A stretch of DNA of 64,000 nucleotides, taken from the NCBI RefSeq assembly GCF_902626525.1, contig NZ_CACOFR010000003.1, positions 1-64,000 of the forward strand, written 5' to 3'. Of the stretch, positions 24,126 to 26,310 are shown piece after piece (the first letter of the stretch is position 1; each line of letters starts with the position of its first letter). The notes below the pieces were generated by a model. The model made no database searches. It had not been told where the DNA came from and saw only the letters and a program-made list of their open reading frames with translations. The translations under genes and the position numbers were made by a program. The stretch comes from an uncultured Prochlorococcus sp. (GTDB lineage Bacteria > Cyanobacteriota > Cyanobacteriia > PCC-6307 > Cyanobiaceae).

Positions 24126-24875
24126 TTATTTTTCAATTGCGTATTGCCATTCTTTATTTTGCGATAGACTCATCTCTCTAAGTAACTGCAGTTTCCTACT
24201 ATTTATTTTAATAACTATCCCATCAGTTGGATATTTCGCAAATATTTTTCTTTCTAACCAATTTTTTTTATATATTTCGATTTCGCTTGTAAGATTTGTG
24301 AAGTAACTGTGAGGGGTGCAGAAGCCACATTTTTTAAGATAGTTAAGGGTTTCATATTGGTTAAGTCTTCCATTAAGTATTTGGAAACAGCAAAAGCTGA
24401 GACCTTCTCCAATCCCTTGCTTATCATTGAGGTATTTTCCTGCAATTTTTTTGGAAATTCCGGCAATATGGTTTGCCGCGTAAAGTTCACCTCTAATTTG
24501 AAAATCTCGTTTGATAGGAATACAATCGGGGACATTTTTAATTTGTTTAATCTTGCTTGAGACATCAAATCCTCTTTTTGTAATAGCCTTATTAAACTTG
24601 CCATTAATATATCTAATTGCAATAGCGCAACCGTCAATTTTTGGTTGAATACTTAATCTTGTTTTTGTTAATAAACTTCCCAAAAAATCTTTGTAATTTT
24701 TTTTTGCTAATTTCGGTAAGATTATTTTATTTCTTTGATTAAAATAGTCATATTTTGTATCAGCAGGTATAAATAGCTTTTCAAGTTGTTTAAAGGCTTT
24801 ATCCGATATAACTCTTTCACCGATTCTATATTGCTCATCAAGATACTTAACATTCTTTTCTAATAAATTATTCAT
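24126..24875 (-). CDS. Stand-alone NAD+-dependent DNA ligase-like adenylation domain
   Basis: 249 residues. QPKIDGCAIAIRY supplies the adenylated lysine K79 in a KxDG motif. It is followed by NKAITKRGFDVSSKIKQIKN, QIRGELY (arginine and glutamate of the RGE motif) and YPTDGIVIKIN (DGVVIK motif). The N-terminus, with YRIGERVISDKAFKQLEKLF, resembles the NAD-binding Ia helices of LigA. The usual OB-fold, zinc, helix-hairpin-helix and BRCT domains are absent, whereas full-length LigA has about 670-700 residues. It could bind AMP without completing ligation, or act on RNA or ends with partners. No sign of frameshift in the flanks. Confidence 0.72.
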   Translation of the reverse strand: MNNLLEKNVKYLDEQYRIGERVISDKAFKQLEKLFIPADTKYDYFNQRNKIILPKLAKKNYKDFLGSLLTKTRLSIQPKIDGCAIAIRYINGKFNKAITKRGFDVSSKIKQIKNVPDCIPIKRDFQIRGELYAANHIAGISKKIAGKYLNDKQGIGEGLSFCCFQILNGRLNQYETLNYLKKCGFCTPHSYFTNLTSEIEIYKKNWLERKIFAKYPTDGIVIKINSRKLQLLREMSLSQNKEWQYAIEK

Positions 24876-25155: not shown

Positions 25156-26310
25156 ATGTCATTTTTATTAAAAGCTAAAAATATTTGGGAAGAATTTGCC
25201 AAATATAAAATCAATGATTATGCAAAATTAAGAAATTTTGATTTTGGGCCAAATACAGAAAGTTCAGTTTCAAAATTATCACCCTTTGTCACACATAGAA
25301 TAATTTCAGAATATGAACTAGTTCATGATATTAAAAGTAAATACAAAATTAAAAATCCAACTAAATTTGTTGAAGAAATTTTTTGGAGAGTTTACTGGAA
25401 AGGGTGGATGGAAAATAGACCGAAAGTATGGCAAAATTTTATTTCAGAAAAAAATCTTAAATATGATCATGAGCTTTATGAACGTGCAATTAATGGAAAT
25501 ACAGAATTAGATTTTTTTAACTCTTGGGTACTTGAATTAAAAAAACATAACTATTTGCATAATCACACAAGAATGTGGTTTGCGAGTACTTGGATTTTTA
25601 ATTTAGGCCTCCCATGGCAATTAGGAGCAAAGTTTTTCTTTAAGTATCTGTTTGACGGTGATGCCGCCTCAAATCTCCTCAGTTGGAGATGGGTCGGCGG
25701 ATTGCAGACAAAAGGAAAGCAATATCTTTTTTCATCTTCAAACCTTAGGAAATTTTCTAATAATAGATTCACTGTAGAAAAAATAATTAACAAACAAATT
25801 TTTCTTGAGGAATCAGATCAAATTCCACTAGAAGATGAGATTTATAAAAATAATATGTATCCTAAATCAGATAATCTTATTATGTTTGAAAATGATCTAC
25901 ACCTTGCAACCCTTAAAAATTTACTTCCAAGCTACAAAAAAGTTTTTATCCTACTATTAAAAAATGAACAAAGACAAATTAAATTGTCTGAAGCTGTTTT
26001 AAAATTTAAACAAGATCTAGTCTCTGAATTTGTAGAGCAATTTGATAATGTTGAACAGATTGATCCTCATTCACTGGAAATTTCACTTAAAAATATTAAT
26101 GAAATAGATATTATCTATCCTGGGGTTGGAGAAAATTATGACTTTATAACTGATTTTAAAAAATTACACAATAAAAATATTTTTAATCTTGTGAGAGATG
26201 AAGATTTATTTGCGTGGAAATTCGCCAAAAAAGGGTTTTTTAAGTTTAAAGAAAATATCCCGAAAATAAATCAGAGAATATTAGAAAATTATGCAAAAAA
26301 TAATTTTTAA
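25156..26310 (+). CDS. Photolyase/cryptochrome-like FAD protein, FAD domain first
   Basis: Residues about 28-210 match the FAD-binding domain of cryptochromes and photolyases: EEIFWRVYWKGWMENRP, HNYLHNHTRMWFAS, FDGDAASNLLSWRWVGG. Residues about 240-370 look like an alpha/beta domain with LIMFENDLHLATLKNLLP and a terminal GFFKFKENIPKI, both recalling the antenna domain that in ordinary photolyases comes first. The domain order therefore appears reversed. It may be a flavin photoreceptor or DNA repair enzyme. No antenna domain precedes the FAD domain at the N-terminus. Confidence 0.75.
   Translation: MSFLLKAKNIWEEFAKYKINDYAKLRNFDFGPNTESSVSKLSPFVTHRIISEYELVHDIKSKYKIKNPTKFVEEIFWRVYWKGWMENRPKVWQNFISEKNLKYDHELYERAINGNTELDFFNSWVLELKKHNYLHNHTRMWFASTWIFNLGLPWQLGAKFFFKYLFDGDAASNLLSWRWVGGLQTKGKQYLFSSSNLRKFSNNRFTVEKIINKQIFLEESDQIPLEDEIYKNNMYPKSDNLIMFENDLHLATLKNLLPSYKKVFILLLKNEQRQIKLSEAVLKFKQDLVSEFVEQFDNVEQIDPHSLEISLKNINEIDIIYPGVGENYDFITDFKKLHNKNIFNLVRDEDLFAWKFAKKGFFKFKENIPKINQRILENYAKNNF

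Follow-up and report, generated by a model that had tools for sequence, protein, structure and literature searches.

Why does a Prochlorococcus gene encode a photolyase-like protein whose two domains stand in the reverse of the textbook order? The window, a 64,000-nucleotide stretch of DNA from an uncultured Prochlorococcus sp., contains on its forward strand a 384-aa open reading frame with an ATG start (25156-26310), for which the original prediction proposed an FAD-binding half followed by an antenna-like domain, resulting from a natural circular permutation. The reversed domain order in this protein is real. It is not new, however: reversed-order photolyases were published in 2020-2022 under the names NewPHL and Phr7, and the gain of the present analysis therefore lies in the distribution of the gene, which has relatives among marine Proteobacteria, SAR11 and SAR86 included, in its probable transfer, and in a link between the C-terminal Z-domain and the antenna fold. 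The order of catalytic and antenna modules found in textbooks is not obligatory, which bears on the question of whether the family originated from separate modules. Given the relatives in SAR11, SAR86 and Prochlorococcus, this enzyme, although little studied, may occur commonly in surface seawater.

In the account of Haney et al. 2022 (PMC9426592), Phr7 of Prochlorococcus HL and LLI strains joins an FAD domain at its N-terminus to a Z-domain at its C-terminus. They equate it with NewPHL, the class of cyclobutane pyrimidine dimer (CPD) photolyases acting on single-stranded DNA that Emmerich et al. introduced in 2020 (NAR 48:12845), and describe Phr4+Phr5 and Phr6 as reversed-order photolyases with Fe-S cysteines. 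NewPHLs have an inverted topology and repair CPDs in single-stranded DNA; members named as characterised come from Dinoroseobacter (D. shibae, A8LJA9) and Methylobacterium (M. mesophilicum, M7YZC8) (PMC9426592, PMC13274461, PMC8948257), and the D. shibae NewPHL is described as having "a mere Trp dyad" (PMC8948257). Among the titles returned by a literature search, none concerned a permuted photolyase.

Domain order and catalytic residues

The gene and its parts are as follows.

25156..26310, forward strand: coding sequence of the very probable Phr7/NewPHL-type photolyase (phr7), 384 aa, no cysteine
25156..25818, forward strand: residues 1-221, helical FAD/catalytic photolyase domain (Pfam, phmmer, VIA-align)
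25375..25389, forward strand: E74, W77 and R78, corresponding to A. nidulans E283, W286 and R287 (alignment; invariant in the 40-row alignment)
25561..25575, forward strand: N136 to M140, with counterparts N349 and M353 (alignment)
25615..25617, forward strand: W154, corresponding to W367 of the Trp triad (alignment)
25654..25692, forward strand: D167 to W179, corresponding to D380, D382, N386, W390 and W392 (alignment)
25819..25857, forward strand: residues 222-234, interdomain linker (boundary read from the secondary structure of the AF2 model)
25858..26307, forward strand: residues 235-384, five-stranded alpha/beta domain (the "Z-domain" of Phr7) with an antenna-like fold (AF2, VIA-align, HHalign bridge)

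The position of the FAD half at the N-terminus was borne out by three concordant lines of evidence. The Pfam profile FAD_binding_7 (PF03441) matches residues 71-194 (E 1e-14), and in a phmmer search residues 12-207 pair with 217-421 of photolyase 1tez, which places this half at the N-terminus. An AF2 model of the whole protein, built with 40 aligned relatives, has a pLDDT of 89.2 and a pTM of 0.90, and VIA-align superimposes its FAD domain on residues 176-420 of 2j07 (Z 15.8, rmsd 3.1, 215 aligned). The sequence alignment of the FAD domain ends near canonical residue 421 (phmmer), and the structural alignment with 1owl reaches residue 465 (212 aligned). The protein thus has the FAD fold and the conserved FAD residues that define the photolyase/cryptochrome superfamily, and its arrangement, with the catalytic domain at the N-terminus and a second domain at the C-terminus, is that of NewPHL and Phr7. 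Of the proposed circular permutation, the reversed order holds; the canonical interdomain linker and the tail of the FAD domain have no clear full counterpart, so that a permutation in the strict sense does not follow. A chance reading frame was rejected on the ground that phr7 is conserved across many genomes, and a frameshifted ordinary photolyase because a 479-aa photolyase frame sits elsewhere in the genome.

The predicted motifs EEIFWRVYWKGW, HNYLHNHTRMWF and DGDAASNLLSWRWVGG are present and match the FAD and lesion-site residues of canonical cyanobacterial photolyase, the reference row being numbered as in A. nidulans. The FAD-site residues Y228, S241, L243, S244, R287, N349, D380, D382 and N386 are kept as Y22, S39, L41, S42, R78, N136, D167, D169 and N173. 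Lesion-site residues E283, W286, M353 and W392 are kept as well, together with Trp390 and Trp367. Four of the 13 listed FAD-site residues are changed (T240 to V38, W280 to F71, W346 to Y133, and A385 to S172), and so is residue 297 (R88). The roles of E283, W286, residue 297, M353, W392 and the Trp triad are given as usually assigned in photolyases. In the alignment W314 has no counterpart, leaving W177 and W154 as a Trp dyad instead of a triad, as in NewPHL and Phr7; the third Trp is present in nearly all canonical photolyase rows. The 40-row alignment (A2) consists of the window protein and 39 of 80 loci kept from a contig scan; 69 of its columns are invariant, proteobacterial relatives at 42-49% identity included, and E74, W77, N136, M140 and W179 are among the residues that never vary. 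The list of FAD-site residues was taken from PMC9426592, where the residue given as T346 is a W in the reference row. The protein contains no cysteine and so lacks the Fe-S cysteines, which again agrees with NewPHL and Phr7. Phr4 has four Fe-S cysteine columns; among the 40 Phr7-family rows, 32 still have a cysteine in the first column and none has one in the other three.

Taken together, the window protein is very probably a photolyase of the Phr7/NewPHL class, and it most likely repairs CPDs in single strands, having a Trp dyad but no Fe-S cluster. Compared by description rather than by sequence, it shows no essential difference from the Phr7 of Haney et al.: it comes, to judge by its nearest named loci, from the same genus as the HL and LLI proteins, and it combines an FAD domain and a Z-domain without Fe-S cysteines. 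With NewPHL it shares the inverted topology and the Trp dyad, while five annotated, uncharacterised alphaproteobacterial relatives are somewhat longer (388-410 aa, compared with 384). Phr4/Phr5 and Phr6 of Synechococcus and Cyanobium also have the FAD domain first and an antenna-type domain second, in two genes or one, but they differ in their Fe-S cluster cysteines, recognisable antenna domain and separate branch. The canonical class I CPD photolyase of the same genome (the 479-aa frame on G000:C2) has the same FAD fold and lesion-site residues, whereas its antenna domain comes first and the third Trp is nearly always present in such enzymes.

In the mechanism proposed, FAD would be held in the N-terminal helical domain, as its conserved residues indicate. 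Blue or near-UV light would excite reduced FAD, from which an electron would pass to a cyclobutane pyrimidine dimer lying near E74, W77, M140 and W179 and split it, and the flavin would be kept reduced via W177 and W154. A preference for single-stranded DNA is expected by analogy with the characterised NewPHLs. The C-terminal domain may pack against the FAD domain and serve as its structural lid, probably without an antenna pigment. Emmerich et al. (2020) reportedly ascribed such a lid role to the C-terminal domain of NewPHL. The reversed order would be a property of the whole lineage and would have come into Prochlorococcus with the gene, most likely from marine Proteobacteria.

The C-terminal domain and the antenna fold

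The C-terminal domain was predicted to resemble the antenna-binding domain of standard photolyases, and this comparison is probably right. Modelled alone (residues 226-384), it folds into five main strands with alternating helices (AF2 pLDDT 88.2, pTM 0.81). In VIA-align, which re-examined 1000 chains that Foldseek had preselected, the best match is residues 2-131 of photolyase 8ijy (Z 8.7, rmsd 2.7, 109 aligned), followed among others by 8a1h (Z 8.2); photolyases fill the first 13 rows, photolyases and cryptochromes make up 38 of 50, and the first unrelated fold, Can2, scores 6.8. Many rows extend to model residue 159 at an rmsd above 4, with the tail lying inside the known structure's FAD domain; the antenna-like part therefore comprises approximately model residues 13-129. 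Foldseek itself gave no match at E up to 0.001 and ranked CoaD first (0.004), with PhrB at E 0.0086-0.018 and TM 0.50-0.53, the highest among the listed rows. CoaD chains are absent from the 50 VIA-align rows, an absence that excludes nothing. Structure prediction and superposition thus recovered the FAD fold and an antenna-like fold, with the reservation that Foldseek prefers CoaD; antenna domains are the best match to this alpha/beta fold, and since the scores are middling, the likeness is good evidence rather than proof of descent. The two sequence cues of the original prediction fared differently. LIMFENDL forms a strand at the place of photolyase strand 1, with residue 13 of the C-terminal model falling on residue 2 of 8ijy. 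For GFFKFKENIP, read as the family's linker, no tool produced a residue pairing, and where photolyase rows of VIA-align extend to residue 159, the end of the chain lies in the FAD domain of the known structures (approximately residues 232-306) and not in their antenna domain.

Direct sequence searches gave the antenna comparison no support. With the C-terminal 156 aa as the sole query, Pfam returned no match (E up to 1), and with the whole protein only a chance-level DUF1257 match in the C-terminal half (E 0.13), and phmmer against the PDB gave nothing better than E 0.77 for this domain; the antenna cue is thus unconfirmed by direct search. NCBIfam gave only a weak CoaD match (TIGR01510, E 0.0027), which, at E up to 0.1, recurs in four of 40 family members (best 0.004). 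When the Phr7 family was compared with antenna and Phr5 profiles in HHalign, no match emerged (probability 0.1), nor did one with the Z-domain rows pooled (10.5 against antenna; further scores 14.4 and 17.8). The domain has no significant match to the PF00875 profile, whose cut-off none of the scanned Phr5 or Phr6 proteins reached either (best E 0.0073). The antenna-like character of the domain is therefore upheld by its best structural matches but not by direct sequence comparison.

The sole sequence link between the C-terminal domain and the antenna, of moderate strength, would run through the alphaproteobacterial relatives. Their C-terminal domains are clear homologues of that in the window (HHalign E 1.3e-15), and they align collinearly with the antenna profile (E 4e-4, probability 35%, 99 columns), which was built from 25 of 30 loci after five had failed a motif filter; all HHalign E-values refer to single pairs. 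The score of this alignment, 30.7, exceeds the maxima of 150 column shuffles (20.4) and 150 block shuffles (28.95). A combined antenna and Phr5 profile gave E 1.4e-5, and addition of a Deinococcus relative gave 1.2e-5 with a probability of 81%, both values standing without a shuffle control. Against Phr5 alone the alphaproteobacterial domain scored 25.2, below the shuffle maxima of 29.3 and 31.2. Phr5, for its part, is clearly homologous to the antenna domain (E 1.3e-8; 1.1e-10 with Deinococcus added).

A separate likeness was met in the structural comparisons. The FAD domain (model m57a33f611fab, residues 1-209) matches chain Ff of 7pub, a Trypanosoma brucei mitoribosomal assembly intermediate, with Z 13.9, and the C-terminal domain (model mbc4d50099f73) matches chain Ff of 7pua with Z 5.9; chain Ff is perhaps a photolyase-like ribosome assembly factor.

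Distribution and tree placement

Within the genus, a full-length or nearly full-length phr7 copy (E < 1e-100) occurs in 77 of 101 genomes; of the 29 genomes with a completeness of 90% or more, 26 have one. Any match at all was obtained in 95 of the 101, the other 18 being weak and of the ordinary-photolyase kind, and in several full-length rows the matching region is interrupted by one or two stop codons. A search at the level of the order revealed a further genus, g3, apparently LLI-like, with full-length copies in 13 of 22 listed genomes (40-43% identity) and one more copy broken by five stops (G316). The contig scan confirmed at least 593 stretches, from which 80 loci were kept; 24 of these listed loci are picocyanobacterial and 56 proteobacterial by title. 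Among the latter, at 42-50% identity, 47 belong to Pelagibacteraceae or Pelagibacter, and nine to SAR86, other Gammaproteobacteria, Rhodobacteraceae or Puniceispirillum. In the class around the genome of locus L091, a relative at E < 1e-70 is found in 17 of 240 genomes, the L091 genome included. Relatives in Ruegeria sp. TM1040, Peteryoungia, Niveispirillum, Asticcacaulis and Novosphingobium are plasmid-borne and, where annotated, are named "FAD-binding domain-containing protein". In accordance with the expectation that marine relatives would keep the order, all frames read were FAD-first. A phage-borne phr7 was rejected, since 15 pattern matches in the viral contig set yielded no confirmed case; ten phage records match the FAD part only, at 24-26% identity. 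The literature search returned no publication on SAR11 photolyase and single-stranded DNA. In one SAR11 genome the phr7 homologue (G519:C1:307188-308818) lies approximately 1 kb from a 495-aa frame on the opposite strand that has a weak FAD_binding_7 match and is perhaps a PhrB-like photolyase.

Two trees of FAD domains were compared. In the first (65 rows), HL and LLI-like copies share an unresolved fork with Proteobacteria. The second comprises 71 domains rooted on canonical photolyases, 18 rows of the first having been dropped as near-copies or by thinning of the canonical rows; the new loci L202-L204, L218, L237, L240 and L242 and the characterised D. shibae and M. mesophilicum enzymes stand outside it. 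To our knowledge, the Alphaproteobacteria named in the tree (Ruegeria, Peteryoungia, Asticcacaulis and Novosphingobium) have uncharacterised enzymes. HL and LLI-like Prochlorococcus rows group together in the second tree (91/87, not starred), which favours a single origin of these copies. They are nested in a marine proteobacterial group (99/94), itself within a clade holding the alphaproteobacterial relatives (100/99), and bootstrap support is weak (80-89) at the forks that separate the Prochlorococcus rows from the base of the marine group. Phr4 and Phr6 stand apart with FAD-only proteobacterial and Deinococcus genes (81/39, weak). As the Prochlorococcus copies lie inside the marine proteobacterial group and not with Synechococcus Phr4/Phr6, the tree suggests horizontal transfer of phr7 into Prochlorococcus.

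Related reversed-order genes occur in split and fused forms. A phr4 gene is followed by phr5 in eight loci, and the two are fused in three; a pattern for three cysteines near the end of the FAD domain was found in ten of 11 Phr4/6 rows, and L060, with wider spacing, was missed by it. A class-level search gave Phr4-like matches in 25 of 116 genomes (E 3e-105 to 8e-69). On a plasmid of Deinococcus sp. QL22 (L241:1360-2651), an FAD-first gene with four cysteines at matching motifs overlaps by four bases a "hypothetical protein" gene resembling Phr5, and from sequence this looks like a split FAD-then-antenna-like pair outside cyanobacteria. No earlier mention of the tree placement, the Deinococcus pair or the spread of Phr4-like genes was found in a search mostly of titles, and no priority is claimed.

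Competing explanations and neighbouring genes

How the architecture arose can be explained in several ways. A strict circular permutation, in which the same two domains and their packing are preserved with the chain ends moved and the antenna pigment still bound, would account for the reversed order and the antenna-like fold; it is nevertheless unlikely, because the C-terminal domain lacks a direct sequence match to antenna domains, the canonical interdomain linker has no clear counterpart, and FAD-first genes exist in which the C-terminal domain is not in frame or the antenna-type domain is the next gene. Such FAD-only or split genes suggest that the domains were joined as modules rather than derived from a permuted full-length gene. 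A more serious contender, though still the less probable side of the question, is that an unrelated Rossmann-like or HUP domain, perhaps of the CoaD kind, was fused to an FAD domain and resembles the antenna by convergence. The weak TIGR01510 matches of the domain alone and of four of 40 members, the first rank of CoaD in Foldseek (E 0.004) and the failure of direct and pooled HHalign against antenna and Phr5 all speak for it. It is opposed by the predominance of photolyases in VIA-align (first 13 rows, 38 of 50 overall), by the collinear alphaproteobacterial alignment with antenna profiles (E 4e-4, above 150 plus 150 shuffles), which reaches E 1.2e-5 and a probability of 81% once Phr5 and its Deinococcus relative are added, and by the clear antenna homology of Phr5, which Phr6 carries as a fused part in the corresponding position.

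It has also to be considered whether Prochlorococcus Phr7 arose by local fusion and decay of a Synechococcus phr4-phr5 pair. The domain order is the same, Phr7 is closest to Phr4 and Phr6 in the tree of Haney et al. (PMC9426592), and the first Fe-S cysteine column is still occupied in 32 of 40 rows. In the second tree, however, to which proteobacterial rows were added, the copies are placed among rows of SAR86, other Gammaproteobacteria and Puniceispirillum, and SAR11 follows as the next neighbour (an order inside this group that the first tree leaves unresolved), and Phr4/6 branch with other FAD-only genes; transfer from marine Proteobacteria is accordingly favoured by that tree, and local fusion appears improbable. 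A cryptochrome-like light sensor devoid of repair activity is the least probable reading of all: loss of the third Trp and several FAD-site substitutions would fit it, but E74, W77, N136, M140 and W179 are kept without exception in 40 rows, and characterised NewPHLs are described as repairing CPDs (PMC9426592, PMC13274461). Beyond the preferred assignment to Phr7/NewPHL, a broader proposal stands at about even chances: the Z-domain would be a degenerate descendant of the antenna domain, and the FAD-first photolyases (Phr4+Phr5, Phr6, NewPHL/Phr7 and the Deinococcus pair) would form one lineage whose modules were rejoined in reverse and which entered Prochlorococcus from marine Proteobacteria after loss of the Fe-S cluster and of the antenna role.

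Two further loci are of interest in their own right. A Persicobacter plasmid (L240:928-2268, forward strand) carries a Bacteroidota FAD-first protein whose C-terminal domain has an antenna-like ending (YYPSFFAYWKKARKYL), although profile comparison of this domain gave nothing clear; the beginning of the frame immediately after this gene resembles that of an ordinary photolyase. In the window, the gene divergent from phr7 (24126-24875, reverse strand) encodes a 249-aa stand-alone adenylation domain of NAD-dependent DNA ligase (PF01653, E 2.8e-18). The PF01653 frames listed are at most 263 aa long in all 19 genus genomes examined, single-contig ones included, often with two per genome, and one of them adjoins phr7, both in the window and in genomes such as G041. 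In other cyanobacteria such frames measure 479-740 aa (11 of 11). The LigA OB domain (PF03120) is likewise present in all 11 of those genomes and in none of the 19 of the genus, and all 19 possess a frame of 440-452 aa that encodes an ATP-dependent ligase (PF01068).
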